A stretch of DNA of 64,000 nt, from assembly GCF_027946175.1 (NCBI RefSeq), contig NZ_AP026671.1, forward strand, positions 248,001 to 312,000, in the 5' to 3' direction. Below, piece after piece: positions 7,073-27,645 of this stretch. The stretch's first letter is position 1; every line of letters starts with the position of its first letter. The notes below the pieces were generated by a model. That model did not search any database and was not told the origin of the DNA. It saw only the letters and a program-made list of their open reading frames with translations. The position numbers were made by a program, and so were the translations under genes. Source of the DNA: Nitratiruptor tergarcus DSM 16512. Its GTDB lineage: Bacteria > Campylobacterota > Campylobacteria > Campylobacterales > Nitratiruptoraceae.

Positions 7073-8311
7073 TTAGCTATTAAGATATGTAGCCCACCAC
7101 TCTAAAAGCTCTTTTCTATCTTCTAAAAAATCGCTTCTAAGATAGCTTTGTGTTACTTTTGAGCCTATATTGTGATGTAGTTGAGATTCTATCGCTTCAA
7201 AGCTACATCCATGCTCTTTTTGGCGTTCAAGTGCTATTGTCTCAAAGCTGCTTCTAAAGCCATGTAAGTCTTGCTCTGGTTCGTTGAGGTCTACTTTAAG
7301 CACCTTCCTAAGAGTATTGTCTGAAATTGGTTTGTGTGCATTAATAGGACTTGCAAAGACTATATCACTGTAGGGACTAGCTATTGCTTTTGCCTGCTGC
7401 AGTACTTTTGATATCTCGTCCGTTAAAGGAATGCGAAAAGGCTGATTTTTTGTTTTCATTGCTTCGGCTGGATAGACAATGACTCTTTTATCAAAATCTA
7501 TATAGTCCCATTTTAAATTGGCTGCATTGCCAAAACGTACCGCAGTAAGAGCGATATATTGGAGCGGGAGTCTGAAGTAGGGATTTTGCAAAGAGCAGAT
7601 TTTTTGATAGATCTTTTGTATATGGTCGTCTGTTACGGCTTTGAGGTGGATGGACTTATGTTTTGGTATGAGACTGTCGATATCTATTGGAGTTGCTGGA
7701 TTGTTTTGGGTGTAGTCGTTATGTATAGCAAAATCAAAGAGATTTTTAAGCAGTCTGTAAACCTCTCTTGCTTTATAGGTTTTGCCAGTACTTCTGTTGT
7801 CTTTTTGAAGTTTTGTAGAGTATGTGTTTTTAACTATCTTGATAATATCCTGTTTTGTTACTTCATCGATTTTAATATTACCTATAAATGGAGTGATATA
7901 GTTTGCAAAGGTGTTGATGTAGTTCTTTTGTAATCTTGATTGACTTACCTCTTTGGCTTTGTGCTGGATGAAACGCTCTATTACAAAGCTTGTAAGTTTT
8001 TTGTTGGCTTCAAGCTCTTTGATACGTTTTTGTTCCTGCTTGTGTCTGTTTGGATCTATGCCGTTTTTGATAAGCTCTTTTATCTCATACTTGATTTTTC
8101 TTGCTTGTGAGAGTGATATTTGAGGATAGTCCCCTATCGTATAAGTGTTTCTCTTGCCTGCATAAGAATAATCGATTCTAAAAATCTTGCGTCCATTTGG
8201 CTTGATTAAGATATAGAGTCCTTCACCGTCTCTAAGTTTGTAATCTTTTTCTTTTTTTGGCTTTGCATTTTTTATTTGCAAATCGTTAAGAGGTTTTATA
8301 CTTTTAGGCAT
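7073..8311 (-). CDS. Tyrosine-recombinase integrase, P4 type with DUF4102 arm domain
   Basis: 412 aa. The N-terminal DUF4102 arm-binding domain (residues 1-90; LRDGEGLYILIKPNGRKIF and TYTIGDYPQISLSQAR) is followed by a SAM-like core-binding region and the catalytic domain. Catalytic residues visible are Arg in LTAVRFGNAANLKW, His and Arg in LHGFRSSFE, a second His in LHHNIG and the nucleophile Tyr in TQSYLRSDF. Length is normal for the family. It reads away from the proposed attachment site at 8491-8513, as in P4-like islands that integrate in tRNA genes. Probably active. Confidence 0.92.
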   Translation of the reverse strand: MPKSIKPLNDLQIKNAKPKKEKDYKLRDGEGLYILIKPNGRKIFRIDYSYAGKRNTYTIGDYPQISLSQARKIKYEIKELIKNGIDPNRHKQEQKRIKELEANKKLTSFVIERFIQHKAKEVSQSRLQKNYINTFANYITPFIGNIKIDEVTKQDIIKIVKNTYSTKLQKDNRSTGKTYKAREVYRLLKNLFDFAIHNDYTQNNPATPIDIDSLIPKHKSIHLKAVTDDHIQKIYQKICSLQNPYFRLPLQYIALTAVRFGNAANLKWDYIDFDKRVIVYPAEAMKTKNQPFRIPLTDEISKVLQQAKAIASPYSDIVFASPINAHKPISDNTLRKVLKVDLNEPEQDLHGFRSSFETIALERQKEHGCSFEAIESQLHHNIGSKVTQSYLRSDFLEDRKELLEWWATYLNS

Positions 8312-8985: not shown

Positions 8986-9738
8986 GAAATTGCAGCTATT
9001 GTCAATTATAATTTCTTACCAGGAGTATTTAAAAAAAATTTAATGAAAAAAAATTATAATTATTTAAAATTATAGTTTAAAATTGAAATTGAAGAAGGAT
9101 AAAGATATGAAGTTTAGTCATATCTTTCTTATTGTTTTTAATTTGTTTCTAGTATTGGGTAATATTGAAGCTGATAGTAATTTTCAGATAGACTCAAAAA
9201 GCAATTTTAATAATCTTTCTTTTTTAGTAGAAAATCTTTCCAATAAAAATTTTCCTATCAATGGATATTTTTCACATTATGGTCAAGGAGCATTTGATTG
9301 GTTATATGTTTCTGCCATTAGTATGAACATTTACAAATTGGATGGTATGGATGAAAATGGTTATTTGAAGTGGACTCCACTTTCGAAATATTTTGACGAG
9401 GTTCAAGTTACGGGCAAGATAATTCATATAGGCAAGAAAAAAGATGTTTTGCATAGTTCTCAAGGTAGTGAAACAGGCAATAGTAATTCAAGCACAAGCG
9501 AAGAGATATTTTTTGAACCAGGTTTAGAGAGATGTATTAGAAAAACTCTAAATATTTCAAATACTCAGGCAATTACTAAAGATATGCTTTTGAATATAAC
9601 TTCTCTAACTTGTTATAATAGCCAAATTGTCACCTGCAATGTTAAAATACACCACAGACGCAAGATGAAAATGTACCATCCATGAGATGAGGAAATATAA
9701 AAGAATATAATCGCTTCCAAAAATATTTGGAGGCAATA

Positions 9739-10815
9739 GTGATTACATACGAGGAGTTTGTGATGGTACATACACTTTACAGACAAGGATACAGCATAAG
9801 AGCTATTGCAAGGATGACAGGACTTGATAGAAGAACCGTATCCAAAAGACTCAAAGAGGATAAGCTTCTGCCAAGAAAACCGAGAGTTTACAAATCGAAG
9901 CTCGATCCATACAAAGAGTATATAAAAAAGAGAATAGCTCAAGGGTTGCCGGATAAAATTCCTTCAACGGTAATATACCGGGAGATTACAGCCAAAGGGT
10001 ATGAGGGGAAGATAAGAATATTGCAGGCGTTTATGAGCGGGCTTTATAAAGAGCATATGAACGTAAAAGAGGAAGAGGTAGTACGATTTGAGACAGATCC
10101 GGGCGAGCAGGCGCAAGCTGACTGGACGGTGATACGAAGAGGGAAGAATCCCGTTTATGCCTTTGCGATGATTTTGGGCTATAGCAGATACGCATTTATC
10201 TGCTTTACAGACAATATGCGCTTTGATAGTTTTATAAATTGTCATAAAAAGGCTTTCGCCTTCTTTGGGGGAGTGCCAAGAACCATTCTTTACGACAACC
10301 TCAAAAGCGTGGTGATAGAGCATAACGCTTACGGGAATGCAAAACACAGATTTAATGAGAGGTTTTTGGATTTTTCCAAAGAGTATGGATTTATTCCAAA
10401 ACTTTGTAAACCCTACAGGGCAAAAACAAAAGGGAAGGTAGAGAGAGTTATAGGCTATATGAAAGGAAACTTCTATATTCCTTTGAAAGCAAGACTCAAA
10501 AACTCTTCGCTTGTTATAGATACAAAGCTTCTTAACAGCCAGATATTTCAGTGGCTTGAAATCGTTCATAATAGAGTGCACGCAACAACGAAGCAAAAAC
10601 CAAAAGAGCTCTTTATAAAAGAGCAAAAAGCTCTGCTGCCGCTAATAATTTCAGCCAAGCCAAAAAGCTTGCATAACAAAAATGAATATGACAATTGCAT
10701 AGACAAAAAGCTTTCCTTGTCAAATAAAAAGTATAAAAACAGCATAAACATACATAATACAGCTAAGAGTTCTTTAGAGGAGTATGATGCGCTTTTGGGA
10801 GTTTGCCATGCATAA
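9739..10815 (+). CDS. istA: IS21-family transposase IstA
   Basis: 358 aa from the GTG at 9739, chosen because GGAGG lies 5 bases before it; a TTG at 9727 would add four residues. N-terminal HTH (GYSIRAIARMTGLDRRTVSK) followed by an rve-type DDE core: Asp in EQAQADWTVI, Asp in TILYDNLKSV and Glu in KTKGKVERVIGY. IstA cuts and joins the IS ends. It overlaps istB by 8 bp for coupled translation. Confidence 0.93.
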   Translation: MITYEEFVMVHTLYRQGYSIRAIARMTGLDRRTVSKRLKEDKLLPRKPRVYKSKLDPYKEYIKKRIAQGLPDKIPSTVIYREITAKGYEGKIRILQAFMSGLYKEHMNVKEEEVVRFETDPGEQAQADWTVIRRGKNPVYAFAMILGYSRYAFICFTDNMRFDSFINCHKKAFAFFGGVPRTILYDNLKSVVIEHNAYGNAKHRFNERFLDFSKEYGFIPKLCKPYRAKTKGKVERVIGYMKGNFYIPLKARLKNSSLVIDTKLLNSQIFQWLEIVHNRVHATTKQKPKELFIKEQKALLPLIISAKPKSLHNKNEYDNCIDKKLSLSNKKYKNSINIHNTAKSSLEEYDALLGVCHA

Positions 10816-11596
10816 AGAGATACACAGTATAAATGAACAGATACAAGAGTATGCTGCGCTTTTTAAACTTCCTGCCATTAAAGAGAGCTTTTCATCCATA
10901 GCTCAAGAAGCAGCTAAAAAGAATCTTTCATACAGTCACTTTTTGCTTGAGCTTTTTAGATATGAACATCAAAAGAAGATAGAGCGTTCAAAAGCAACAA
11001 CACTAAAAATGGCAGGCTTTCCAAAAGTAAAGACTCTGGAGATGTTTGATTTCTCATCTTCTGCGGTAGATAGAAATATTATTAATGAACTTTCTACTTT
11101 AAGATTTATAGAGAATGCCGAAAATATCCTGCTTATTGGACCAAGCGGTGTTGGGAAAACCCACCTGGCCATAGCTTTGGGATATTTGGCTACACAAGCA
11201 AGAATAAAAACAAAATTCATCACTGCAGCAGATCTGTTATTGCAACTTGAGATAGCCCAGCAGACAAACAGATTGCAGTACTATTTCAAAAAGGTTATCA
11301 ATACAGTAAAACTCTTGATTATCGATGAATTTGGCTATATCAAGCTCAATGAAAACCAGGCCAATCTCTTTTTTCAGGTAATCAACAAAAGATATGAAAC
11401 AGGTTCAATTATCATTACAAGCAATCTATCTTTTACAAAATTCAAGGAGGTGTTAAACAATGATGAAGCGTTAACTACTGCTGTTCTTGATAGACTTATT
11501 CACCATAGCCATATACTCAATATCCAAGGTGAAAGCTACAGGCTTAAGCAAAAAAGAAAAGCTGGTGTCCTTACTAGACTCGATAACAATTTTTAG
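10808..11596 (+). CDS. istB: IS21-family ATPase helper IstB
   Basis: 262 aa from the ATG at 10808, within the end of istA. AAA+ ATPase related to DnaC: Walker A GPSGVGKTHLA and Walker B LLIIDEFG, sensor-like SIIITSNLSF. IstB assembles on target DNA and stimulates IstA. Complete and uninterrupted, so the element may be mobile. An open frame upstream of 10808 in the same phase is not needed. Confidence 0.92.
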   Translation: MHKEIHSINEQIQEYAALFKLPAIKESFSSIAQEAAKKNLSYSHFLLELFRYEHQKKIERSKATTLKMAGFPKVKTLEMFDFSSSAVDRNIINELSTLRFIENAENILLIGPSGVGKTHLAIALGYLATQARIKTKFITAADLLLQLEIAQQTNRLQYYFKKVINTVKLLIIDEFGYIKLNENQANLFFQVINKRYETGSIIITSNLSFTKFKEVLNNDEALTTAVLDRLIHHSHILNIQGESYRLKQKRKAGVLTRLDNNF

Positions 11597-12744
11597 TTTC
11601 AAAGTGGTACATTTTCACTTCGCATCTTGGTACATTTTTAGGTTGCACTTGACACCAAATCAGCGATATAAGACCATTGTCTAATCTCACTAATTTGGTA
11701 AGTTTGTATCTTCATTACAATAAAATCATTGATATAGGACTATTGTCTAATCTTACTAATTTGAAATATTTATCTCTTTCTTATAATCGAATAAGCGATA
11801 TAAGACCATTGTCTCATCTTACTAATTTGAAACAGTTGGTTCTTTATGGCAATTGTATACAAGATTTTACTGCTGTGCAATTTGTTCCAAGTTGTAGTGG
11901 TTGCAGGAAAGAGTCACAGGGAGCACAATGCAATGAAACAGTCACTTTTGAACCAGATTTAGAGAGATGTATTAGACACACTCTTAATATTTCAAATACT
12001 CAGCCAATTACTAAAGATATGCTTTGGAATATAACTTCTCTAGACTGTCGAAATAATTTAATCAGCGATATAAGACCATTGTCAAATCTTACTAATTTGA
12101 GATATTTGAATCTTTCTCAAAATCAAATCAGCGACATAAGTCCGTTGTCCAACCTCACTTATTTGAAAAGTTTATCTCTTTATGGCAATAAAATAAGCGA
12201 TATAAGTCCATTGTCCAACCTTATTGATTTGAAAGAATTGTATCTTTCTCAAAATCAAATCAGCGATATAAGTCCATTGTCCAACCTCACTCATTTGAAA
12301 AGTTTATCTCTTTATGGCAATAAAATAAGCGATATAAGTCCATTGTCCAACCTTATTGATTTGAAAGTTTTGAGTCTATCACAGAATCAAATTAGTAATA
12401 TTAATCCATTGTCTAATCTCACTAATTTGGAAAATTTGGGTCTAAATTCCAATCAAATAAGCGATATAAGTCCGTTATCTAACCTTACTAATTTGAAAAG
12501 ATTGTATCTTGATAACAATCAAATCAGTGATATAGGTCCGTTATCTCATCTTACTAATTTAAAAATTTTGTATCTTAAAAACAATCAAATCAGTGATATA
12601 AGTCCGTTGTCCTACCTTATTACTAATTTGAAACAGTTGGTTCTTTATGGCAATTGTATACAAGATTTTACTACCGTACAATTTGTTCCAATATGTAGCG
12701 GTTGTATGAAAAGGTTACAGAGAACACAATGCAACGAAAAATAA

Positions 12745-13306: not shown

Positions 13307-14965
13307 ATGCATAGAGTAGTCGCTGTCTTAATACTTTTTTTCTCATCTGTGTTTGGTGGATGGTGTATTCAACATGCTGTGCAACGGGCTATTCATGATA
13401 ATGAAGATAAAATTTTTTTCAAAACCTTTCCCAATGGGATTATATGCCAAAATAATGGATTATATAGATTTGTAACTGGCGTATATAAGAGTAAAAAAGA
13501 GGCTATTCTCTCTTTAAAATTAGCTCGTAAGACTCATCCAGATGCCTTTTTGAAAAAATGTGATATCTTACAATGCAAAAATCCAATCAAAAAAATCTAT
13601 AATGATATTACTGTTGAAAAAAAACAAGCCAAAAAAGTAATTAAAAAAGAGCAAAATATCACTGCGAATGAAAGTGAAGATGCATTTGTAAAAAAGATTT
13701 TACAAACACTCGATAATAAAGAAAAAGAGAACTCTTATACGCTCGGTTTTTATGAGTTCTTAGAGAGGCTTTTTCACAACGATTACAACGCTAAAAATCT
13801 TGACTATACAAAGCAACTTGTGCAACTGGAAGCATTCCTTGATAATGTACAGTATGACTGGAATATCTATGGAAATGTTGCTTTAAGGTACAGTAAATTT
13901 ATAGATTATGATCTTGCTACCGATAAAGAGTTTATAAGTGATTTTGGAATCAATATTGAAAAACGTCTCTTTGATGGAGGAATGTTAGAAAAAAACAGTA
14001 TTTTCTTGCTTAAAAAGCGTCTAGCAAAGCTAGATTATCTCACAGCAAAAGATAAATTATCTCTTTACGGATTAGAGATCTATACACAAGCACTACTCTA
14101 TCAGCATCTCAAAAATGTTTATCAAGAAGAGTATTTTAATCAAAAAAGTTTCTACTATCTTGTCAAAGAGCGAACAAAAGCTGGAATTGCTTCACCAGTA
14201 GATGAAATAGATGCCAAAAATGATCTGCTAGAACTTAAAAAAAGTCTTCTTGTCAAAATATATGAATATCTCTACAGTGACTATTTGCTAAGAAATAGTA
14301 TAGAGCTTAATACTACTAAGCCTATTGTACTGCAAGATATAGGATTTGATATTGATGAAGAGGGCGGATTAGAAGAGTTGTATAAAAAAGCGTATGAAAC
14401 AAATAGAGAGGTAAAAAAAGAGCAAACCCGTTATGCTCTTACAAAAAAGCAAATAAAAAATAGTGAGCGTGCATTTTTGCCAATTATCGATTTTAGCGGA
14501 TCGCTATTTTATGAGTATAAAAAAGATTTTACCGAAACTCCTCATAAAAATGCGCATGGGCTTAATTATAATGCAGGTGTTACTATTAAGATTCCAATCT
14601 ACTCATTAGAAGCAAGAAGCGAATATATACAAAAAGCTAAACTGCATGCAGTAGTGCAAAAAAACAAGATGCTTGATACAATGAAGAGAATTTCAAAAGA
14701 TATCCATCGACTCTATAATGAAAACCGAAGACTCGCAAAGCATATGCGTATACTCCAGCAGCAGCTTACATTGATGAAAGAGAAGATGCATTTAGTTAAA
14801 CAACGTTATCTCAATGGTTTAGCCCAATATCGCGATTTTAAAGATGCTCTGCGTAGTTACTTGGGATACGAAGAAGAAAAAGAGTCTATTAAGCTGCAAA
14901 TGATTCGCAATAGCGCACAGATAAATATCTTAATAGGTAAACAGATATTTTATGGCGAGAATTAA
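13307..14965 (+). CDS. TolC-like outer-membrane protein of the Pel-like locus
   Basis: 552 aa with an N-terminal signal sequence (residues 1-18). A SPOR-like stretch (about 30-95, YRFVTGVYKSKKEAILSLKL) precedes a Lys-rich linker. From about 140 the protein has the long-helix layout of the TolC/outer-membrane efflux family, with two similar halves (helix, NVALRYSKF strand; helix, GVTIKIPIYS strand). TolC proteins form trimeric channels through the outer membrane and periplasm. It is the first gene of the operon and overlaps pelF by 14 bp, so it is a candidate export channel for the polymer in place of PelB. Confidence 0.75.
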   Translation: MHRVVAVLILFFSSVFGGWCIQHAVQRAIHDNEDKIFFKTFPNGIICQNNGLYRFVTGVYKSKKEAILSLKLARKTHPDAFLKKCDILQCKNPIKKIYNDITVEKKQAKKVIKKEQNITANESEDAFVKKILQTLDNKEKENSYTLGFYEFLERLFHNDYNAKNLDYTKQLVQLEAFLDNVQYDWNIYGNVALRYSKFIDYDLATDKEFISDFGINIEKRLFDGGMLEKNSIFLLKKRLAKLDYLTAKDKLSLYGLEIYTQALLYQHLKNVYQEEYFNQKSFYYLVKERTKAGIASPVDEIDAKNDLLELKKSLLVKIYEYLYSDYLLRNSIELNTTKPIVLQDIGFDIDEEGGLEELYKKAYETNREVKKEQTRYALTKKQIKNSERAFLPIIDFSGSLFYEYKKDFTETPHKNAHGLNYNAGVTIKIPIYSLEARSEYIQKAKLHAVVQKNKMLDTMKRISKDIHRLYNENRRLAKHMRILQQQLTLMKEKMHLVKQRYLNGLAQYRDFKDALRSYLGYEEEKESIKLQMIRNSAQINILIGKQIFYGEN

Positions 14966-16427
14966 GGTAGTTTGGACGGGGGAGGGGACATATCCCTATG
15001 CTACTGGTGGCGTAAGTACTTGGGCTGATATTCTGATCAAAGAGTTAAAAAATATAGACTTCATACTTATGCCTATTATGATGCATCCCTATATGCAAGC
15101 AAAATATGAGATACCGCCAAATGTTGTTGATACAGTTAATGTTCCACTTTGGGGGACAGAAGAGCCTACAGAGTATATTCGCAATATTGAATTTTCCCGC
15201 ATTTATAAAGCAAAAATCAAAACGCAAGAACATAAAGATATTGCACGGTTTGAGCCTATTTTAATAAAACTTCTCAATCATATCTATCAAAAAGAAGAAG
15301 ATTTTGAGGGCCTTGGTTATGCTTTGGTAGAGTTTTATGACTATTTTTTGGAGTATGATTACTATGAGATATTTCGTAGTGAAGAGGTTTGGGAGATATA
15401 TAAGCATTATCTTATAGAGCATTATAAAGATCAAAAAAATAAATTGCCTACGGTTTTTGATATGATAGAAGGGCTACGATATCTCTTTCGTTTTTTTATC
15501 TCTTTACTTCCTGAGTTGCCAAAAGCTGATATCTATCACTCTTCAGCTGCTGCATTTTGTGGGTTGCCCTGTATTATTGCTAAAATTAAACATAAAAGTA
15601 AATTTCTTCTTACTGAACATGGGATCTATATCAGAGAACAGTACCTTTTTGCTTCAAGAAACCAGACGCCTATCAAAACAAAAGAGTTCTTGTTAGGGCT
15701 TATTAAGACGGTTTCCCGCCTCAACTACCATTTTGCTGATGTTATATCTCCGGTATGTGAGTATAATAAGCGATGGGAACGCAAATGGGGAGCTCAAGAA
15801 GAGAAGATTAAAACAATTTATAATGGAATCGATGTACTGAAATTTCAACGTTTTGAGGTGGAGCGTGAAAAGCGGCCTAGTGTTGTAATGGTAGCAAGAG
15901 TAGATCCTTTAAAAGATGTAGAGACTTTTATACGCTGCTGTGGGATTGTTGCAAAAAGAGTTCATAATGTTCATTTTAAGCTCTATGGTCCTGAAGTAGA
16001 TAAAGAGTATATGTTGCAATGTAAAATGCTTGTAAAAGAGCTAGGTATCGAGAGCAATTTTTCTTTCATGGGTCCTACTTCCAATCCTGCAAGAGCATAC
16101 AATGAAGCTGATGTTGTTATGCTTACAAGTATTTCAGAGGCTTTTCCTTTTGCTGTGATCGAAGCGATGGCATGCGAGCGTGTTGTTGTATCAAGTGATG
16201 TGGGAGGAACAAAAGAGGTTCTTGAAGGATACGGTTTTATAGTTAAACCCAAAGATTATGAAGAGTTTTCTAAGTATGTGATATATCTGTTGGAAAATCC
16301 TCAATTTGCCAAGGAGCTTGGTCGGCGAGCAAGGGGTAGAATTCTCAATGGTTTTACTATTGAAGATATGGTAGATAACTATTGGAAACTCTATAGAGAA
16401 CTTTATGAGAGCCGTCAAAATGCTTAG
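14952..16427 (+). CDS. pelF: PelF-like GT4 glycosyltransferase (polymer synthase)
   Basis: 491 aa, the usual length for PelF. The N-terminus reads GEGTYPYATGGVSTW, the hallmark PelF start that precedes an N-terminal Rossmann domain (HSSAAAFCGLPC, LLTEHGIYIREQ). The second Rossmann domain has VVMVARVDPLKDVETFI, FMGPTSNPARAYNEADVVM and the GT-B donor site SEAFPFAVIEAMAC. PelF is a cytoplasmic UDP-sugar-dependent enzyme that polymerises Pel, an N-acetylated aminosugar polymer, and works with PelG in the inner membrane. Starts inside the end of the TolC-like gene and is followed by pelG. Confidence 0.9.
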   Translation: MARIKVVWTGEGTYPYATGGVSTWADILIKELKNIDFILMPIMMHPYMQAKYEIPPNVVDTVNVPLWGTEEPTEYIRNIEFSRIYKAKIKTQEHKDIARFEPILIKLLNHIYQKEEDFEGLGYALVEFYDYFLEYDYYEIFRSEEVWEIYKHYLIEHYKDQKNKLPTVFDMIEGLRYLFRFFISLLPELPKADIYHSSAAAFCGLPCIIAKIKHKSKFLLTEHGIYIREQYLFASRNQTPIKTKEFLLGLIKTVSRLNYHFADVISPVCEYNKRWERKWGAQEEKIKTIYNGIDVLKFQRFEVEREKRPSVVMVARVDPLKDVETFIRCCGIVAKRVHNVHFKLYGPEVDKEYMLQCKMLVKELGIESNFSFMGPTSNPARAYNEADVVMLTSISEAFPFAVIEAMACERVVVSSDVGGTKEVLEGYGFIVKPKDYEEFSKYVIYLLENPQFAKELGRRARGRILNGFTIEDMVDNYWKLYRELYESRQNA

Positions 16428-16434
16428 GGGTGAT

Positions 16435-17994
16435 ATGATGGAAGAAAAACTCAAAAATCTCTATAGGGAAATCACTAAAGAGAGAGGTGAACCTCTTGAT
16501 TTTTGGGAAGTAGCAGCACTTTTGGAAGTTTATGGGATGAGAGATGTAGATGTAAAAAAAGAGTATGGATTTGAAGATGTTTTTGCATTGGCCAAAGAGC
16601 TCATGCGCTACAAAGATATCAAAAAATATCCCGTTAAAACTATAGTGAATATGCAAAAACTTCCTCCTATCAAAGAGAGAGTAATTCAAAACTACCTCAA
16701 AGGTCTCGCCTTCGCGATACCGATGCTTATACAGATTCTTGCCACTATTATTTTAGGATTTGCATTGTGGTCAAATATTCATATTGATGAATCTGTTGCT
16801 ACTATGATAGCTTTTGGTACATTTTTGGCAATGATTTTTACTGGAGGTCCAGCGCAGATTATAGGACGTAAGGGACTTTATTATCTCAAAATGAATGAAG
16901 ATGTATTAGCAGCTAAAACAATTTGGGTTTTTTATATCACAAGTGTTATAGCTATAGTTATACTCTCATTGATTTTTTTTCTTTTTAATACAATTTTTCA
17001 AACTTTAGATTCCCATCTTTTTATCATTTTCCTATCAACATTTTTTCTACTTTCAATACTTTTTTTGAATGTAAGTATTTACTATGTATTTGAGGAGTAT
17101 GGGACGATTGCACTCTTTTTTGTTTTGGGTGTAGTGTTTGTGATACCAATACACTATATTCTACATATCGATTTTCCCCATGCACAGTTTGTTGCCATTG
17201 CGCTTTTAGATCTCTTTATTCTCTATTTTGCTAGACGAAAACTTATAAACCTTAAATCAAATGTACAATCTGAAGGTGAACTTTTACCTCGCGTTTCGAT
17301 GCTTATCTATACTCTTTTGCCGTTTTTTATATATGGAGTCTTTTATTTTCTCTTTTTGGTATTAGATAAACTTATTGAATGGAATACGAATGCATTACAT
17401 CACGGTTTTTTTATATGGTTTGATGTGAAATATGAAATAGGTACCGATCTGGCACTTATTGTACTAGTACTCCTTGTTGGATTGTTAGAAGTTGTAGTAT
17501 ATGAGTTTTTATATAAGACAAATGAGAATGTTTTTGCCTTTTCTTTGCATGAGTATGAGCAGTTTAATGGTTATTTTCAAAAATTTTATCGCAATGTAAA
17601 TAGAATATTTATAATTTTTGCATTAGGGACGATAATAGTAACAAGTATATTTTCGGCTATTCTTGTTCATTTTGTGAGTGATGAGAGACTGCCTTTTTCG
17701 GTAGATTCAGCCTATGTGTTTGTAGTAAGTGCAGTAGCATATGCATTTTTGACTGCTGGGTTGATGAATGCTTTGATACTCTTTTCATTTTCAAGACAGA
17801 AGGTGGTAGTCAAAGCTATTGTGTTAGCTACTGTGGCAAATTTTTTTGTTGGCGTTATTTTCTCAAATCTCCTATATCGCTATTTTGCGGTAATGGGATT
17901 GCTAGTAGGGAGTGCAATATTTTGGTATGTTACTTACAGTTTTTTAAAAACTATGTTCAAAAAGTTTGACTATTACTATTATTCGGCTTTTTAA
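16435..17994 (+). CDS. pelG: PelG-like polysaccharide transporter
   Basis: 519 aa from the ATG at 16435, preceded by TTAGGGGTG; an earlier ATG at 16405 lies inside pelF. About 90 soluble N-terminal residues precede roughly 12 membrane helices of the MOP/MATE-like fold (ATIILGFALW, IAIVILSLIFFLF, FVGVIFSNLLYRYF). PelG is the predicted inner-membrane flippase of Pel systems and contacts PelF, PelD and PelE in Pseudomonas. The family is usually about 450-470 aa, so this member has an N-terminal extension. Confidence 0.85.
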   Translation: MMEEKLKNLYREITKERGEPLDFWEVAALLEVYGMRDVDVKKEYGFEDVFALAKELMRYKDIKKYPVKTIVNMQKLPPIKERVIQNYLKGLAFAIPMLIQILATIILGFALWSNIHIDESVATMIAFGTFLAMIFTGGPAQIIGRKGLYYLKMNEDVLAAKTIWVFYITSVIAIVILSLIFFLFNTIFQTLDSHLFIIFLSTFFLLSILFLNVSIYYVFEEYGTIALFFVLGVVFVIPIHYILHIDFPHAQFVAIALLDLFILYFARRKLINLKSNVQSEGELLPRVSMLIYTLLPFFIYGVFYFLFLVLDKLIEWNTNALHHGFFIWFDVKYEIGTDLALIVLVLLVGLLEVVVYEFLYKTNENVFAFSLHEYEQFNGYFQKFYRNVNRIFIIFALGTIIVTSIFSAILVHFVSDERLPFSVDSAYVFVVSAVAYAFLTAGLMNALILFSFSRQKVVVKAIVLATVANFFVGVIFSNLLYRYFAVMGLLVGSAIFWYVTYSFLKTMFKKFDYYYYSAF

Positions 17995-18003: not shown

Positions 18004-18909
18004 ATGAGAGTCTTCGTAACGGTATTGATATTGCTATTATTTGCAGGGTGTAGTGTAAAAAATGAAAATATAGACAAAGAACTAGCTAAAGAGGTACATC
18101 TCCATGTTTATTCCAATGAGCTTCAAGATATTTGGGCACAAAGGAGTAGTCCACGAAAATTGTTATACCGTTTCCCTTTTGTAGGAGCTCCTAAAGGTGA
18201 AGACATACGGGGTAAATTCGATGATAAGTTTTATAGCAGCATTAATTTAGTATACAATGCAAAAAAAATTGAAGATGTAGATTTTTGGAAACTGCGAGAC
18301 AATCCAAAAAGTTTAGATTTTATCTATGTTCGTCCTCTATGGATCAAAGAGTATCGTAAGCTGACCAAAGATCTCTTTGCAAACATTGCCTATTCTTATA
18401 ATATATCAGCTAAAGAACAAGAGATTTTACGCGACTGGGTATACAATGGTGGAAAGCTTTGGTTAGAGTTTGGGGTATATTCTACCAAATATGATATGTT
18501 TAACAAAAATGGAGAGATAGATCCAAGAAAAATAGAAAAACTTATTAAAAATAGTTTTACAGGGCTCACATTTTGGAAAAAGCCATTGCGTAACTTTATC
18601 TTCAAATCAGATGATCTTGATCTCATTAACTATCTCCCTACTATTAAGAGATTTCGCATAGATGAAAGAAAATCTCAAATTAAAGGTATAAAAAGACTCA
18701 AACTCAATATCTACAACTATATGGAAAATTATGTTCTTGTAGATGGGAAAGCATTGCTAGTTGACAAACAGGGGCGAACACTAGTGACACTTAATCGTTT
18801 TGGTAAGGGATATGTGTTGAGTATGCTGCCCTTTGAGTATCAAGATGTCTATTATGATGGAGAGCTATTGCGCTGGAAGCTTCTTTTTATGCTCTATGAG
18901 CGGCGATAA
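18004..18909 (+). CDS. Lipoprotein of the Pel-like locus, function unknown
   Basis: 301 aa. Lipoprotein signal LILLLFAGCSVKN with Cys at about residue 16. The rest is soluble and periplasmic. WVYNGGKLWLEFG and GKGYVLSMLPFEYQ, separated by about 130 residues, resemble the Gly-rich turns of the DUF4159/DUF4350 class-I glutamine-amidotransferase-like fold, but this is a weak motif match. Placed between pelG and the duplicated membrane-protein gene, 9 bp after pelG. It could take the position of PelC or of a PelA part, but there is no sequence sign of a hydrolase. Confidence 0.7.
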   Translation: MRVFVTVLILLLFAGCSVKNENIDKELAKEVHLHVYSNELQDIWAQRSSPRKLLYRFPFVGAPKGEDIRGKFDDKFYSSINLVYNAKKIEDVDFWKLRDNPKSLDFIYVRPLWIKEYRKLTKDLFANIAYSYNISAKEQEILRDWVYNGGKLWLEFGVYSTKYDMFNKNGEIDPRKIEKLIKNSFTGLTFWKKPLRNFIFKSDDLDLINYLPTIKRFRIDERKSQIKGIKRLKLNIYNYMENYVLVDGKALLVDKQGRTLVTLNRFGKGYVLSMLPFEYQDVYYDGELLRWKLLFMLYERR

Positions 18910-18918
18910 GGTAAAAAT

Positions 18919-21104
18919 TTGACAAGAGAAGATTTTATTGATTATGGAATACTGCAAAAAATATTTTTTCTCAATGTAAAAAGTGCAATTCTTCTCTTTG
19001 TTGTTGCTTATATCCTTTTTATTTATGTTCCTCGGCGCATTTTTCCTCAAAAATATACTGGCGGTGGTATAGAAAATATCATATCTAATATCATATATAT
19101 GCTTGTTTTTATTGAATTGAGTGTACCGTTGATGGTTTTTTTGAAGATTTTTAATACTTTTACGTTTATAAGTGCACTAATTATTACAAAACTCTTTTTT
19201 GTAAAGTTTTATGAGCATAAAGAGATAAAATCCTATCTTAGAGATATTAAAAACCGCACTATGATTGCGATATTTGACTTTTTTGATCACTATCATGAAA
19301 AAATTGAAGAGTTTAAAAAGAGAAAAAAGGAGGAAATTTTTCTCTATTTTAAACATCTTGATTATTATCAGGTATTTAAAAAGATATTGATATTTGCAGT
19401 TTTTGCACATCTTGTTTATATTTTAGGTTATAGATGTTTTATTGCTTTAGCGAATCCCCTTCCTGATACGAGCCAGTTTTTTGAGTGGGTAGCAAATCTC
19501 CAGCAAAATGTTCTCTATGCAGATAATAAAACGGCAAAAGCAGACTTTTACGGTATTTCAGTATTTATTTTTATATTACGCATTTTTACCCATTTAGATA
19601 CGATTGTACTGTTTAATATCTATCCCTTGCTTCTCATTATATTTTTGCTTCTTGGTGTTTACTTTGTTTTGAAGCGTTTTAGTGTCTCTTCACTCATTGC
19701 ACTCTTTACACTTCTTATCTATGGATCTTTTTTGATTGGATCTCCTTGGAATAGTTTCATAGCTACTCCAATTGCATTGACTGAAAATCCTGAAATTATT
19801 CGTTTTTTCTCTTTTAAAATTTATCAAGTGCCATCATCTTATCTGCTTCAGCCACATCTCTATTTAGAAAATATAGCTATGACACCACTCATGCGCTATT
19901 TTAGCGGTATGGCATACGAGTTTTCTTCAGCTTTTTATCTTCTTAATCTATTTTATCTCATTAAATCTGTTGATACTGGAAAAACAAGATATCTCTTTAA
20001 CTATACCTTTACACTTATGCTTGTTTTTATATTTCATGGTGGAGGGGCAATTGCTTTAATTGTTCCAAGTATTTTTATTGCTTTACATGCTTTACTTAGT
20101 GGAAAACTAAGTATTTCTCTTTTAAAGAGGGGATTTGTTGCGATTTTCAGTGCGGCGATTTTAGGGAATGGGTGGGTTTTATCTGTATTAAAATATGGTA
20201 TTCCACAAGATTTTGGAAATGCAGCACCATTTTTAGATAGATTGTTTCATACGAAACAAGCAATAGTACAAATTGCAACTGCAGGAATTGAAGAGGTAAC
20301 TATTTCTTATCTTACTTGGGTGCACCTTTTTCTTGTTCTGTCTGCAATTGCTTTTTTCTTGATAGCAAGAGTGTATAAAAAAGGTTCTATTTTAGTAGTT
20401 TTTTACTGATTCCCCTAGGTTTTTTTGTTGTATACTACGCTGAAAATATCGGCTTTCCAAAACTGGTACATCCCTCACGGGGTGCAGAGTATCTCTTTTT
20501 AAGTATTACAATCATCATAGCGTGTTATATAAAACTGTTTTTATGGGTTCCTCTTAAACTTTTAATAAAAAGGTATGCAAAGTATATTTTTATGATGCTA
20601 CTTTATGTAGCATTACTATTTTCTGCATTTGTTGTGGAGCATTATAAAAATACTGATGAGTATAGAAAACTAATCAATGGAGTACAATACTCTGATATAC
20701 CCTATTTTCTCTATAAAATAGTAAGGCAGAATAAACCATTAACCTGGACTGTTGTTTCATACGTGCAAGAGAATTCAAAGGTATTAGGTAAAGGATATAT
20801 GGTCAATACAAATGAGTTTATTATTCAGTATGATCCGAGGGATAGGTATGTAAAGATACCTACACCTAAAGTCTATATTTTTGTAGAGGATATTCCTCAT
20901 AAATATACTGGAAAAGATCAATGGTACTATAGGTGGAGGAAAGATATACAAGATAATCTCAAGCACTGGATAGCACTCTATAGCGCAAAACATGATAATA
21001 TTAAAATCTTTGCTAAGAGTCATCTTGTAACTGTATATGAGATAGATAATAGCGGTTATATAAAAGAGCTTGAAAGGAAAAGTCGTGAAAGCAGTAATAA
21101 ATAG
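18919..21104 (+). pseudogene. Large polytopic membrane protein, copy 1, frameshifted
   Basis: Starts at the TTG at 18919, 9 bp after the lipoprotein gene, with GGTAAA before it. The first frame gives 496 aa with about ten membrane helices (SAILLFVVAYILFIYV, HLVYILGYRCFIALA) and ends at 20409. The other frame is open from 20379, reads KRFYFSSFLLIPLGFFVVYY and continues to 21104. A single -1 event in the A6 run 20377-20382 would give one protein of about 740 aa: a membrane domain followed by a soluble C-terminal domain. The layout resembles GT-C or polymerase-like proteins, but I recognise no family signature. Role in the Pel-like system is inferred from position. Confidence 0.7.
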
Positions 21105-21261: not shown

Positions 21262-21308
21262 GCTGGAAGCTTCTTTTTATGCTCTATGAGCGGCGATAAG
21301 GTAAAAAT

Positions 21309-23509
21309 TTGACAAGAGAAGATTTTATTGATTATGGAATACTGCAAAAAATATTTTTTCTCAATGTAAAAAGTGCAATTCTTCTCTTTGTTGTTGCTTA
21401 TATCCTTTTTATTTATGTTCCTCGGCGCATTTTTCCTCAAAAATATACTGGCGGTGGTATAGAAAATATCATATCTAATATCATATATATGCTTGTTTTT
21501 ATTGAATTGAGTGTACCGTTGATGGTTTTTTTGAAGATTTTTAATACTTTTACGTTTATAAGTGCACTAATTATTACAAAACTCTTTTTTGTAAAGTTTT
21601 ATGAGCATAAAGAGATAAAATCCTATCTTAGAGATATTAAAAACCGCACTATGATTGCGATATTTGACTTTTTTGATCACTATCATGAAAAAATTGAAGA
21701 GTTTAAAAAGAGAAAAAAGGAGGAAATTTTTCTCTATTTTAAACATCTTGATTATTATCAGGTATTTAAAAAGATATTGATATTTGCAGTTTTTGCACAT
21801 CTTGTTTATATTTTAGGTTATAGATGTTTTATTGCTTTAGCGAATCCCCTTCCTGATACGAGCCAGTTTTTTGAGTGGGTAGCAAATCTCCAGCAAAATG
21901 TTCTCTATGCAGATAATAAAACGGCAAAAGCAGACTTTTACGGTATTTCAGTATTTATTTTTATATTACGCATTTTTACCCATTTAGATACGATTGTACT
22001 GTTTAATATCTATCCCTTGCTTCTCATTATATTTTTGCTTCTTGGTGTTTACTTTGTTTTGAAGCGTTTTAGTGTCTCTTCACTCATTGCACTCTTTACA
22101 CTTCTTATCTATGGATCTTTTTTGATTGGATCTCCTTGGAATAGTTTCATAGCTACTCCAATTGCATTGACTGAAAATCCTGAAATTATTCGTTTTTTCT
22201 CTTTTAAAATTTATCAAGTGCCATCATCTTATCTGCTTCAGCCACATCTCTATTTAGAAAATATAGCTATGACACCACTCATGCGCTATTTTAGCGGTAT
22301 GGCATACGAGTTTTCTTCAGCTTTTTATCTTCTTAATCTATTTTATCTCATTAAATCTGTTGATACTGGAAAAACAAGATATCTCTTTAACTATACCTTT
22401 ACACTTATGCTTGTTTTTATATTTCATGGTGGAGGGGCAATTGCTTTAATTGTTCCAAGTATTTTTATTGCTTTACATGCTTTACTTAGTGGAAAACTAA
22501 GTATTTCTCTTTTAAAGAGGGGATTTGTTGCGATTTTCAGTGCGGCGATTTTAGGGAATGGGTGGGTTTTATCTGTATTAAAATATGGTATTCCACAAGA
22601 TTTTGGAAATGCAGCACCATTTTTAGATAGATTGTTTCATACGAAACAAGCAATAGTACAAATTGCAACTGCAGGAATTGAAGAGGTAACTATTTCTTAT
22701 CTTACTTGGGTGCACCTTTTTCTTGTTCTGTCTGCAATTGCTTTTTTCTTGATAGCAAGAGTGTATAAAAAAGGTTCTATTTTAGTAGTTTTTTACTGAT
22801 TCCCCTAGGTTTTTTTGTTGTATACTACGCTGAAAATATCGGCTTTCCAAAACTGGTACATCCCTCACGGGGTGCAGAGTATCTCTTTTTAAGTATTACA
22901 ATCATCATAGCGTGTTATATAAAACTGTTTTTATGGGTTCCTCTTAAACTTTTAATAAAAAGGTATGCAAAGTATATTTTTATGATGCTACTTTATGTAG
23001 CATTACTATTTTCTGCATTTGTTGTGGAGCATTATAAAAATACTGATGAGTATAGAAAACTAATCAATGGAGTACAATACTCTGATATACCCTATTTTCT
23101 CTATAAAATAGTAAGGCAGAATAAACCATTAACCTGGACTGTTGTTTCATACGTGCAAGAGAATTCAAAGGTATTAGGTAAAGGATATATGGTCAATACA
23201 AATGAGTTTATTATTCAGTATGATCCGAGGGATAGGTATGTAAAGATACCTACACCTAAAGTCTATATTTTTGTAGAGGATATTCCTCATAAATATACTG
23301 GAAAAGATCAATGGTACTATAGGTGGAGGAAAGATATACAAGATAATCTCAAGCACTGGATAGCACTCTATAGCGCAAAACATGATAATATTAAAATCTT
23401 TGCCAGGAGTCATCTTGTAACTGTATATGAGATAGATAATAGCGGTTATATAAAAAATCTTGAAAGGATAAATTGTGAACAGCATACTTCTGCAGCAAAA
23501 ACTAAGTGA
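21309..23509 (+). pseudogene. Large polytopic membrane protein, copy 2, same frameshift
   Basis: Identical to copy 1 over the first 496 codons, including the TTG start and the break at the A6 run (22767-22772). The second frame runs to 23509 and ends differently from copy 1 (KNLERINCEQHTSAAKTK versus KELERKSRESSNK). Its end overlaps the HD-GYP gene start by 35 bp, so this 3' end is likely the ancestral one. The downstream ATG at 22982 could start a separate 175-aa protein with one membrane helix and a soluble domain, if the two parts are really independent genes. Confidence 0.7.
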
Positions 23510-24938
23510 TGCAACATTTTATATAGCCATCAATTTTTGGTATGTTTTTTTAATAATTGCGATTCTCTTTTTTCTACTCTCTATAAAACTTTTTAAAGAT
23601 AAAGCTATTTTGAAATATAAACTACGGAATCAAAATGATGCTTTTGAAAAGCTTTCACATCTAAGAAAAATTGGTGAAATAGAAGCATTTTTGGGCTATT
23701 ACTGTAAAATTATAGAAGCTGATGTTTTAGCACTCTATCTACGCAGAGGTGACATTTATATTTTAGAGAGTAAGAGTAATGAACTAAAAGATATCGAAGT
23801 ACCACCACGTGTCTATAAACGTGAACTCAAAGAGTATAAAAAACTCTCTTCTTATCATATCTATTACCTTGAATCTCATTATGAAAAAGCATTGTTAGCT
23901 ATTTTTACTAAAAAAGAGTTGGCAATAGAAGAGATAAGAGGATTTTTGGATATGTTCTTGGCCTATTATGAGCGTCTGAATGAACTGTATAAAGAGATTA
24001 ATCTCACTACTATTTTTGATAGTTCAAAAAACCTTTTAACAAATATTATGAAATACCAACATGGCACTGAGACTTTTTTAAAGTTTGTTGTCTCTTTGTT
24101 ACTTAAAACAACACATGCTACTGGAATGGTGCTTAAAAACAGGGAAAACCCTAAAAAGATAGATATTTTTAAACATCCTCAAGAGTACCGTTTTAAAAAA
24201 GATTTCTATATTCGCAACACTCCATATATTTTGGAAATTTATACTAAAGATCCTATGAGTGAAAAAGAGATTACAGAAGTTGGTTCTTTTCTTGATTTGG
24301 CAGGGAGCTATTTTGAAAATCTTGATGCCAGCAGTAAGATGGTGGCAAATTATGTAGATTTTCTCAAACTCTCCAATAAAGCTTTAGAGATGCAAAGCAA
24401 ATACTTTAGGAATCATGCACAAAAAGTGAAATTGGTAAGCATTGAAATAGGAAAGAATCTCTTTTTAGATGAGGCGAGTATCGACATACTTGCTTTGGGT
24501 GCAGAACTACATGATATAGGAATGATAGGCAAAATAGAAAACTTTCTTGATAGTGGAAAAATAGATAAAAAAGAGCTGGATCTCATTCGTTACCATCCTA
24601 TTGTTGGAAGTGTTATAGTTGAGCCCATTAACAATGTTTATCCCATTGCACCTATTATCAAATATCATCATGAACGTTTTGATGGAACAGGTTACCCCTA
24701 TGGCCTCAAAGGTAAAGATATTCCTCTCTTAGCGCAAATAGTAGCATTGGCAGAGTACTATATAGGAGTAACAAGTCCTCGAGCTTACCGCAAAGCTTAT
24801 TCGCATGAAGAAGCACTAGCAGATATAAAGAAACAAAAGGATAAACTTGTTGAAGGAAATATTATCGATGCTTTTGTGCAAAATCATGAAGGCATTAGAG
24901 AAAAATTACAAGTTTTACAAACAAAAGAGAATTTATAA
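23475..24938 (+). CDS. Membrane-anchored GAF-like/HD-GYP protein (c-di-GMP phosphodiesterase)
   Basis: 487 aa from the GTG at 23475. One membrane helix (about 18-40), then a region of about 270 residues with GAF-like character, then an HD-GYP domain. Key motifs are ELHDIGMIGKI (HD pair), RYHPIVGSVIVEP and KYHHERFDGTGYPYGLKG (HHExxDGxGYP). HD-GYP enzymes hydrolyse cyclic di-GMP. Standard Pel systems use PelD, a membrane GAF plus degenerate GGDEF receptor of c-di-GMP. Here a membrane GAF-like protein with an apparently intact HD-GYP domain occupies the locus, so it may sense or remove the signal that controls the synthase. Confidence 0.85.
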   Translation: MNSILLQQKLSDATFYIAINFWYVFLIIAILFFLLSIKLFKDKAILKYKLRNQNDAFEKLSHLRKIGEIEAFLGYYCKIIEADVLALYLRRGDIYILESKSNELKDIEVPPRVYKRELKEYKKLSSYHIYYLESHYEKALLAIFTKKELAIEEIRGFLDMFLAYYERLNELYKEINLTTIFDSSKNLLTNIMKYQHGTETFLKFVVSLLLKTTHATGMVLKNRENPKKIDIFKHPQEYRFKKDFYIRNTPYILEIYTKDPMSEKEITEVGSFLDLAGSYFENLDASSKMVANYVDFLKLSNKALEMQSKYFRNHAQKVKLVSIEIGKNLFLDEASIDILALGAELHDIGMIGKIENFLDSGKIDKKELDLIRYHPIVGSVIVEPINNVYPIAPIIKYHHERFDGTGYPYGLKGKDIPLLAQIVALAEYYIGVTSPRAYRKAYSHEEALADIKKQKDKLVEGNIIDAFVQNHEGIREKLQVLQTKENL

Positions 24939-24941
24939 AAT

Positions 24942-25934
24942 TTAGTAATTAAATGATTTGACTTCATAAACTGTTTTTTTGGGATTTTCAAGGAAATTAT
25001 TTTTGATAAATTCCTGCTCTTTTTTTGTGAGATATACAGTTACAAGAGCTTTTGTTTCTGGCTGTAATAGATAGTTTTTATTAGGAATAACTATTTCAGC
25101 AGTCATTCGTTTAAAGTCAGGATCTACTATCATTACTACACGAGAAATTTTTGCTTCTACATGATAGGGAGGTGTAGTAATAAAATCGATGCGTACCTTT
25201 TTACCTTTTTTAATAAAAGGGATGAGTCCCGGGGCTATACCAGCTTTAACGATAACTTTATCAAGATTGACGATATGGCCAAGTTTTGTTCCCTTTGCAA
25301 CATAATCACCTACTTGCATTTTTAAATCTGCCACAAAACCATCTATATCACTGCGTATTTCACTCAGAGCGAGCCGGTGTTGCAGTTTTTTTAACTCATT
25401 TTTTGTAATAGCTATACGTTCATCCAAAAACTGCAATTTTTCTGCTTTAGACTCACCTTCGCTATATTTTGAATGAAGACTTGATGCATAAAGGGCTTTT
25501 GCATTGTTATACTCTATACTATTTGCTAGTCCTTGCGATTTTAGTTTTGAGAGTTTTTCAAGTTTTTCTCTTGCAATATTTACAAGAGCAAGATTGACAT
25601 TGTGTTTTTTGCTATGTTTGAGAAATTTTTTGAGTTGTACGAGATACTCTAACTCTTGTTGCGTTTTTTCAATATCAAATTTTGTGATTACTGTGTGGAA
25701 TTTTGCAAGAAGTTTTCCTTGTTTTACACGATCGCCAGATTTGACGAAGATTTGTTTGATTCTTCCTGTAGTAGGTGCAATAATATCTTTCTCATTACTT
25801 GGATAGACTGTACCTTCTAATCTAATGGAGATACCATTTTTGCTTTTTTTAATCTCTTTTTCTTCTACTGTTTTTGCACATCCCAAAAAAAGAAGTGGTA
25901 TGAGTATAAAAAAAGTTAATGTTTTTACATTCAT
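24942..25934 (-). CDS. HlyD/RND-type periplasmic adaptor lipoprotein
   Basis: 330 aa. Lipoprotein signal (FFILIPLLFLGCAK), biotinyl-lipoyl-like half motifs GTVYPSNEKDIIAPTTGRI and DGFVADLKMQVGDYVAKG around a coiled-coil hairpin (about 85-190), then a beta-barrel domain. Such adaptors bridge inner-membrane pumps and TolC channels. Its stop lies 3 bp from the stop of the convergent HD-GYP gene, and its start overlaps the deacetylase gene by 4 bp. A likely partner for the TolC-like protein at 13307. No ABC or RND pump is seen beside it. Confidence 0.84.
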   Translation of the reverse strand: MNVKTLTFFILIPLLFLGCAKTVEEKEIKKSKNGISIRLEGTVYPSNEKDIIAPTTGRIKQIFVKSGDRVKQGKLLAKFHTVITKFDIEKTQQELEYLVQLKKFLKHSKKHNVNLALVNIAREKLEKLSKLKSQGLANSIEYNNAKALYASSLHSKYSEGESKAEKLQFLDERIAITKNELKKLQHRLALSEIRSDIDGFVADLKMQVGDYVAKGTKLGHIVNLDKVIVKAGIAPGLIPFIKKGKKVRIDFITTPPYHVEAKISRVVMIVDPDFKRMTAEIVIPNKNYLLQPETKALVTVYLTKKEQEFIKNNFLENPKKTVYEVKSFNY

Positions 25935-26746
25935 ATTTTATCCTTGCAAAACTGCTTTAAAATTTTATCAAATCTTTGCAAACTATTTTCAACAGCAAAA
26001 AATGTTAAAAAGTATGCTACATCAAGCTTCACATCTTTTCTAAATCGAGTAAATAGATGTGGCAATAGTTCATACGGATGTGTATAGATTATCGGCTTAT
26101 GACCTTGATTTATTAAGTTTGCGAAAAGTCTTTGGATAAGAAAAAAGGGAAGGACTCGCATATAAAATCCTCCACTAAAAGGGATTATATTTTTAAGCAG
26201 AGGAATTTCTGTAATGGTTCCTGCTGGGGTTGTAATGACAAAAGGGCTTTTTTTATCGATGCTATTGCCGTACATATAGGTTTTGAATGGAAAATAGGTA
26301 GAAGTGAAGCGAAAGCCTGACGCTACTAGTGCTTCGTAATATTTTTTTTCAAAAGGCATACTCCAGCTAGGAGCTCGATATCCAATAACCTCTTGGCCTA
26401 TTATATCTTCAAGGATTTTTTTAGCATCTTGTGTTTCTCTTTGCCACTCATCAAAAGGAAGATTATAAACAAGTTCATGTCTAAGTCCATGGCAAGCAAT
26501 TTCATGGCCATTTTTGTGAAGTGCTTTGATTATGTGAGGGTATTTTTTGGCAAAACTCCCTAAAACAAATGCTGTTGAAGAAATATTGTGTTTTTGACAA
26601 AAAACTATCCATTTATTTATAATGGCTGCATAATCGATCCGTAATGGATGCTTTGGTGTTATTCCAAAATTAGCATCTTCTACCTCTTCTACGTCTATAG
26701 TCAACCATATTGGGTATTTGGTGTAGTTGTATGGTAAGTACATCAT
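25931..26746 (-). CDS. Polysaccharide deacetylase (DUF3473-type)
   Basis: 271 aa from the ATG at 26746, which overlaps the stop of the flippase-like gene (ATGATG). NodB-fold motifs: PIWLTIDVEEVED (catalytic Asp), EIACHGLRHE (zinc His pair), GYRAPSWSM (Arg-Ala-Pro) and a late THPYEL, as in the DUF3473 deacetylases of PEP-CTERM/exosortase-associated loci. No signal peptide, so it may act in the cytoplasm on lipid-linked or precursor sugars. It could supply the deacetylation that PelA performs in standard Pel systems; this is inference. Confidence 0.86.
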   Translation of the reverse strand: MMYLPYNYTKYPIWLTIDVEEVEDANFGITPKHPLRIDYAAIINKWIVFCQKHNISSTAFVLGSFAKKYPHIIKALHKNGHEIACHGLRHELVYNLPFDEWQRETQDAKKILEDIIGQEVIGYRAPSWSMPFEKKYYEALVASGFRFTSTYFPFKTYMYGNSIDKKSPFVITTPAGTITEIPLLKNIIPFSGGFYMRVLPFFLIQRLFANLINQGHKPIIYTHPYELLPHLFTRFRKDVKLDVAYFLTFFAVENSLQRFDKILKQFCKDKI

Positions 26747-27645
26747 AAAAACTCTTTTGTCATAAATAAATAGATACTGTAAAGTGTTGCAGGTAAGATA
26801 TAAAGGAATTGTAACACAATTGAAGCACTCAACGCACTCTCTTTTGGTATACCGTACCATCCAAGTACAAGAACGAAGGCCGCTTGAAATGTACCTATTC
26901 CACCAGGAGTTATTGGTATGGCAGAAACTGCAAAAGCGAGTGTAGAGGCGATAAATATTTGTGAAAAAGTGAGATGAAAATCTGTTGCAAGAGTGAAAAA
27001 TACAAAATTATTGAGATAGTAACCTCCCCATACAGCAAGTGAGAGGAGAGTAAGTATAACAATCTTTTTTATATTCATAAAAGATTGAAGAGATTTATAT
27101 ATTTGATAGAGTGAAAGGCGTAATTTTCTCCAAGGAATTATCTGCAGCAATCTATAAAATCTTTTTGGCTGTAGAAGAAGGTAGAAAAAAATTAGAGTGA
27201 TAAAAGCTATAAAAATTACTAAAATATAGGCTTTTGGTTCCGGATATATAAAAAGTGTACTAAAAAGTATCAAAAATCCTAAAATGATCACATCAAAAAA
27301 TCTTTCAATTAAAAACATGGCAGTAACATCTTTGATTTTTGCACTCTCTTTTTTATGAAGATAATAGATTTTACTCAAATCTCCAAGTTTTGCTGGAGCA
27401 AATATATTGAGGAAAAAGGCGAGCATATTGGCTTCTAAACTTGTAAGAAAACTATAGCGAAAGAGTCCTAAGTAGTACCATCGATAGGAGATGATAATAT
27501 CACTGAAAAATACTGTCAAAAAAGTAAGGATTATGCCTATAATATTGAGATGTTGTAGACTAGTAAAGAAAAGATACCAATCAATATCATAAAAAAGCCA
27601 GAGAAGTAGTAAAAATATAATAGTAATTTTGATGACTGTTTTCAT
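26743..27645 (-). CDS. UPF0104/AglD-type flippase-like membrane protein
   Basis: 300 aa with about eight membrane helices. Family signature: IISYRWYYLG, FLNIFAPAKLGDLSKIYYL, then ERFFDVIILG, and PITPGGIGTFQAAFVLVLG near the end, the lysylphosphatidylglycerol synthase TM region (flippase domain of MprF and relatives such as AglD). Lacks the soluble MprF synthase domain. Likely moves or supports a lipid-linked glycan. Overlaps both neighbours by 4 bp. Confidence 0.85.
   Translation of the reverse strand: MKTVIKITIIFLLLLWLFYDIDWYLFFTSLQHLNIIGIILTFLTVFFSDIIISYRWYYLGLFRYSFLTSLEANMLAFFLNIFAPAKLGDLSKIYYLHKKESAKIKDVTAMFLIERFFDVIILGFLILFSTLFIYPEPKAYILVIFIAFITLIFFYLLLQPKRFYRLLQIIPWRKLRLSLYQIYKSLQSFMNIKKIVILTLLSLAVWGGYYLNNFVFFTLATDFHLTFSQIFIASTLAFAVSAIPITPGGIGTFQAAFVLVLGWYGIPKESALSASIVLQFLYILPATLYSIYLFMTKEFL

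Follow-up and report, generated by a model that had tools for sequence, protein, structure and literature searches.

A divergent Pel-like gene cluster, found in the 64,000-nucleotide stretch of Nitratiruptor tergarcus DNA analysed here (the window), carries in the PelD position a gene for an HD-GYP protein that probably serves as the c-di-GMP receptor, or input module, of the machine and, judging from its sequence, would have been made from a catalytically degenerate HD-GYP domain. Four observations underlie this reading: the gene is paired with pelF and pelG in a fixed arrangement, the protein and PelD exclude each other, catalytic residues have been lost with retention of ligand contacts, and the HD-GYP domain is conserved above the rest of the protein. 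We lean slightly towards the wider proposal that Pel-type machines have acquired a c-di-GMP receptor twice, independently, and that here a degenerate HD-GYP domain would take the role of the degenerate GGDEF domain of PelD within a divergent cluster exchanged at one site, so that a discarded phosphodiesterase domain would act as an on-switch. Degenerate-enzyme receptors of c-di-GMP are a kind already known, to which the HD-GYP protein would then belong.

The divergent pel-like cluster and its neighbours

The genes of the cluster are arranged in the order OEP-PelF-PelG-orfA-M1-HD-GYP, with the HD-GYP protein gene in the last place. The cluster genes that precede it and two conserved neighbours are as follows.

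13307-14965, plus strand: TolC-type outer-membrane efflux protein, first gene of the cluster (PF02321, E 7e-25)
14952-16427, plus strand: PelF of divergent type (NF038011, 186 bits, cut-off 100)
16405-17994, plus strand: PelG-like membrane protein with an extra N-terminal stretch (PF16933, 27.5 bits, E 1.9e-6, just below the cut-off of 29)
18004-18909, plus strand: lipoprotein orfA, without a family match, kept in all clusters of the divergent type
18919-21104, plus strand: M1, a large multi-TM protein, interrupted by a -1 frameshift at the run of A residues 20377-20382
21309-23509, plus strand: second tandem copy of M1, almost identical and with the same frameshift, its end overlapping the start of the HD-GYP gene
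24942-25934, minus strand: HlyD/RND-type periplasmic adaptor lipoprotein, a conserved neighbour in the genus
25931-26860, minus strand: polysaccharide deacetylase (Polysacc_deac_1 and DUF3473), a conserved neighbour

On the 3' side of the HD-GYP gene, the opposite strand encodes the HlyD-type adaptor, the deacetylase, a flippase-like protein and further polysaccharide genes. The HD-GYP protein is encoded with pelF and pelG in a cluster that differs from the canonical Pel operon (pelABCDEFG), in which PelF and PelG are accompanied by PelD/PelE, the hydrolase/deacetylase PelA and PelB/PelC, PelD being absent and the TolC, HlyD, deacetylase, lipoprotein and M1 proteins occurring instead. A D..QF.EW motif, which would be GT-C-like, is conserved in M1 of the relatives examined.

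The M1 duplication is a 2142-bp tandem (18872-21013 and 21262-23403) without a mismatch, a few mismatches being present only near the 3' end, and it begins in the terminal 38 bases of the lipoprotein gene. Only one M1 copy is present in the closest relative (L031). The frameshift lies at a six-A run in both window copies (20377-20382 and 22767-22772), and M1 is a single 724-aa ORF in another relative (L037); the shift may be a mutation, a consensus error or a programmed event. Since two or three diverged tandem copies were found in other genomes (L032, 6239-14203; L086, 6532-10541), M1 duplication recurs, and in L032 the copies flank the HD-GYP gene on both sides.

Just upstream of the cluster, translations inspected by eye suggest a mobile-element remnant (134-8311) with transposase-like and primase/DUF3987-like ORFs, a RelE/antitoxin-like pair (6506-7022) and a tyrosine integrase-like ORF (7073-8311). 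By the same means, 9083-12744 appears to be a single gene for a leucine-rich-repeat surface protein in two pieces (9083-9685 and 11677-12744), inside which lies an IstA/IstB-like pair of the IS21 type (9727-11596). The plasmid collection searched yielded no match.

Architecture of the HD-GYP protein

The ORF has a GTG start inside the end of the preceding gene, the second M1 copy. Its parts, all on the plus strand, are listed below.

23475-24938, plus strand: HD-GYP protein gene, 487 aa, the PelD-position gene of the cluster
23526-23609, plus strand: single N-terminal membrane helix, about residues 18-45 (AlphaFold2 helices 4-20 and 22-61, with a hydrophobic stretch)
23670-23999, plus strand: GAF-like domain 1, residues 66-175 (mean identity 33%, the lowest conservation in the protein)
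24066-24314, plus strand: GAF-like domain 2, residues 198-280, with an invariant IRNTP motif
24372-24884, plus strand: HD-GYP domain, residues 300-470 (mean identity 61%, the highest conservation in the protein)
24510-24524, plus strand: HDIGM motif, residues 346-350, with Met for the conserved Lys (PmGH K225)
24666-24698, plus strand: HHER-DGTGYP motif, residues 398-408, intact
24753-24755, plus strand: Glu427, at the position of a metal ligand that is otherwise a conserved Asp (PmGH D305)

The Pfam families HD_5 (PF13487; 89.5 bits, E 2.8e-25, cut-off 27.2) and HD (45 bits, E 1.5e-11) match at residues 300-457, and the HD, HHE and GYP residues are invariant across 16 orthologues, which places the protein in the HD-GYP domain family. 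An AlphaFold2 model of the whole protein, based on 16 orthologues, has a mean pLDDT of 75.9, with residues 351-377 poorly modelled, and predicts a membrane helix at the N-terminus followed by two alpha/beta domains and a helical HD-GYP part. Its best fold matches are the HD-GYPs of PmGH, DvhD and PA4781. Modelled alone, the GAF part reached a mean pLDDT of 82.2 and resembles tandem-GAF structures most closely, for instance those of PDE2A and phytochromes. The membrane-anchored, GAF-like protein with a C-terminal HD-GYP that had been described from the DNA is therefore borne out by Pfam and AlphaFold2, with one membrane helix and with two GAF-like domains rather than one. A decaying pseudogene was ruled out, as the HD-GYP domain is the best-conserved part of the protein (61% against 33% for GAF-like domain 1), which points to a functional protein.

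Pairing with divergent PelF and exclusion of PelD

PelF was found in 61 of 399 genomes of the order, including 41 high-scoring, canonical proteins and 20 low-scoring ones like that of the window (156-183 bits). A profile of the N-terminal part of the HD-GYP protein detected it in 16 of these 399 genomes, from five families, at E<=1e-46, with the next best match at 4e-5. Fifteen of the 20 genomes with divergent PelF encode the HD-GYP protein, and none of the 41 with canonical PelF does so. In the sixteenth genome (G088) the gene lies at the start of a contig that begins just before it. The remaining five divergent-PelF genomes, three of them within the genus and the other two being G100 and G342, have contigs that end before its place.

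PelD shows the opposite distribution. A profile built from six PelDs of canonical clusters of the same order matched in all 41 canonical-PelF genomes, as well as in two genomes lacking a PelF match; the 20 divergent-PelF genomes, that of the window included, gave no match. A PF16963 (PelD) search of the window genome likewise gave no match, a result uninformative on its own, the positive control having given none. The original prediction had placed the HD-GYP protein in the position of PelD and had named a true pelD elsewhere in the genome as evidence to the contrary; such a hidden PelD is ruled out by PF16963 together with the six-PelD profile. The replacement itself is strongly supported, as the two proteins are mutually exclusive, each with its own PelF type.

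Within the genus, PelF is present in 12 of 16 genomes and an HD-GYP of any kind in nine of 16, exactly one in each and always the PelD-position gene. For the three genus members that have PelF without the HD-GYP protein, the contig ends within or before M1. The HD-GYP gene adjoins M1 in all eight genus relatives that carry it; the whole gene order is seen in those with the cluster on one contig, and in the others the contig ends inside the cluster. The same order recurs in the families f9, f10, f17 and f20, whose HD-GYP proteins have 34-38% identity to that of the window. Other genomes thus do pair this protein with pelFG, a check that had been suggested together with the original prediction, and they do so in a fixed gene order across families. 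Chance linkage of a generic HD-GYP to pel genes is ruled out by the five-family pairing and by the absence of any other HD-GYP from the genus members that carry it. No further group with the protein emerged from a sample of 397 genomes of the phylum, and the species carrying the cluster are vent and sediment bacteria.

Apparent alternatives at one chromosomal site

In two other genera of the same family (G017 and G019), a PelD-encoding canonical pel cluster adjoins genes for a ThiF-like protein, surE, an AEC-type transporter, lpxB, greA and argC. This block also flanks the divergent cluster in the window. Canonical and divergent Pel-type systems appear to be alternatives at one chromosomal address; with two system types at one site, the statement that the HD-GYP protein stands in place of PelD holds for the whole system and not for a single swapped gene. 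The PelD of G017 scores 46.5 bits against PF16963.

Loss of catalytic residues

Residues were numbered by mapping to PmGH of Persephonella marina, whose mutants are published (PMC4159591). D183, R192, K225, D305 and D308 are jointly lost in all 17 family sequences; among 94 other HD-GYP domains, a broad but not random set chosen partly by motif pattern and partly by query similarity, 76 have lost none of the five, 15 one, two two and a single domain all five. The K225 position is Met throughout the family, turning HDIGK into HDIGM (Lys in 92 of the 94 others), and the D305 position is always Glu (Asp in 92). Asp never occurs at the D308 position (Asp in 91 others), D183 is replaced by Ser or Asn (Asp in 83), and R192 is absent (Arg in 88). 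At the position of E185 the family has Tyr in 16 sequences and Asn in one, Tyr being common in other HD-GYPs too. Retained in 17 of 17 are the six core His/Asp metal ligands (H189, H221, D222, H250, H276 and H277), GYP, I294, R314 and a Lys or Arg at 317.

In PmGH, activity is abolished by D183A, K225A and D308A, as it is by changes to the core metal ligands, and is reduced by E185A and D305A, whereas mutants of GYP, R314 and K317, residues that bind substrate, stay active (PMC4159591). Hydrogen bonds are described from K225 to D183, E185 and D222 and from D308 to both R192 and H189 (PMC4159591). To judge from the aligned residues, the K225-D183 and D308-R192 partnerships are dissolved in the family. 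Measured by the residues that PmGH needs, the family would fall outside the active phosphodiesterases, D183, K225 and D308 being absent and D305 being Glu in every member, although some residual catalysis may persist with the core metal ligands intact.

The domain had been described as a seemingly active HD-GYP through which the secretion complex degrades its own activating signal, as a negative loop on polymer output. The HD and GYP motifs are indeed intact, but HDIGM, the Asp-to-Glu change of the last metal ligand and the loss of D183, R192 and D308 in all orthologues speak against activity, and the loop finds no support in a family where PmGH-essential residues are absent and c-di-GMP contacts conserved. 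Altered metal residues, which had been foreseen as a ground for doubting activity, are seen at E185 (to Tyr) and D305 (to Glu); the other six ligands are unaltered.

We regard it as rather improbable that the protein is an active phosphodiesterase with a remodelled second shell, degrading c-di-GMP beside the export machine and so limiting polymer output. Invariant HD, HH and GYP motifs and all six metal ligands would suit such an enzyme, as would the replacement of D305 by nothing more drastic than Glu. VCA0681 (V-cGAP3) is active despite lacking one residue that PmGH needs (PMC4212101), so the PmGH rules may not be universal. This enzyme shares with the family a Tyr for E185 and a Ser for D183; these two changes therefore carry little weight alone, but unlike the family it keeps the HDIGK lysine. 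Against activity stand the joint absence of K225, D183 and D308, each needed in PmGH, the single case of fivefold loss in the comparison set and the presence of other phosphodiesterase-domain proteins in the genome (eight EAL matches).

Ligand contacts and proposed mechanism

By alignment, the c-di-GMP contacts Y523, Y621, R650 and Y652 of DvhD correspond to Y310, Y407, R436 and Y438 of the HD-GYP protein. Among 16 orthologues Y407, R436 and Y438 do not vary, and Y310 is almost invariant. Conserved contacts together with missing catalytic residues (K225, D183 and D308) are what a DvhD-like receptor would have. The equivalents of two further DvhD contacts, K582 and E668, are not kept, which is an argument against a receptor. 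So is the conservative nature of the D305-to-Glu change, PmGH D305A having kept some activity; the main counter-argument is the invariance of the six core metal ligands, which a pure receptor would not need.

A trigger-type protein, in which slow turnover and binding both matter, substrate occupancy switches a partner and catalysis works as a reset timer, would account for metal ligands and ligand contacts kept alongside lost rate-supporting residues. Trigger phosphodiesterases are a described class (PMC5052742). Nevertheless, the loss of K225 and D183 is expected to stop turnover, and we consider this option doubtful, more so than a fully active enzyme. Jointly, an active or slow enzyme would take about a third of the probability. 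Very improbable is a repurposing of the domain, without any tie to c-di-GMP, for another ligand or for structure alone in the complex. The family forms one clade (support 1.0) on a long stem branch, and this branch and the loss of several conserved residues could be read in that way, but the GYP Tyr, R314 and other c-di-GMP contacts are invariant over five families and the replaced PelD is itself a c-di-GMP receptor.

Under the favoured receptor reading, the HD-GYP protein would be held at the inner membrane by its one helix, and c-di-GMP would bind the old active-site cleft (GYP Tyr407, invariant Arg436 and Tyr438, and Tyr310) without efficient turnover. Binding would alter the arrangement of the dimer and stalk and be relayed via the tandem GAF region to PelF, PelG and M1, presumably through contact with PelF/PelG. 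Polymer synthesis or export would thereby be switched, most likely on when c-di-GMP is abundant, if the sign is the same as for PelD. The genome has 14 GGDEF, eight EAL and three PilZ matches; a c-di-GMP network is thus present for the protein to read, and signal turnover need not depend on it. One of the three PilZ domains lies in the window (57446-57751, minus strand, 51.7 bits).

Comparison with known receptors

PelD of Pseudomonas aeruginosa and Bacillus cereus and the HD-GYP protein are both membrane-anchored, GAF-containing regulatory proteins of a PelF/PelG cluster, with a C-terminal, enzyme-derived and probably inactive c-di-GMP domain. The N-terminal membrane segment of PelD comprises several helices, and the protein has a single GAF and a degenerate GGDEF with an RxxD I-site (PF16963), whereas the HD-GYP protein combines a single helix with two GAF-like domains and an HD-GYP and gives no PF16963 match. 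Direct homology of the N-terminal part with PelD found no support, which counts somewhat against the receptor reading: profile comparison of this region with PelD gave no significant match, a profile search of the PDB gave only chance matches for it, and PelD is not among the 50 listed fold matches of the GAF part.

PmGH is the best sequence and fold match and shares the GAF plus HD-GYP architecture, but is an active tri-iron phosphodiesterase with D183, E185, K225, D305 and D308, all five of which are changed in the HD-GYP protein. The experimental precedent is DvhD of Desulfovibrio vulgaris, an HD-GYP receptor that does not hydrolyse c-di-GMP and is the analogue of LapD, whose GGDEF-EAL is inactive (PMC13090378). 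Both DvhD and the HD-GYP protein are membrane proteins with several c-di-GMP contact residues of the HD-GYP in common, and in the alignment DvhD, too, has no Asp at the positions of D305 and D308. It differs from the HD-GYP protein in its periplasmic dCache and its PAS domain, in controlling a protease and in the loss of the HD and HH metal ligands. As its non-hydrolysing HD-GYP binds c-di-GMP and does the job done elsewhere by the inactive GGDEF-EAL of LapD, the relation of DvhD to LapD would be a close parallel to that of the HD-GYP protein to the degenerate GGDEF of PelD.

It is well known that GGDEF and EAL domains without activity can act as c-di-GMP receptors. Receptors of this sort with an HD-GYP have hardly been documented, the clear case found being DvhD (2026), and our search of the open literature, within the limits of open libraries, returned no account of an HD-GYP occupying the position of PelD. 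If the receptor reading is true, the HD-GYP protein would be a second inactive HD-GYP receptor and the first found in this analysis for exopolysaccharide synthesis. It would also caution that an HD-GYP with intact HD and GYP motifs is not always a phosphodiesterase, and the residue signature of the family (HDIGM, AE for AD and no Asp at D308) may allow such receptors to be recognised.
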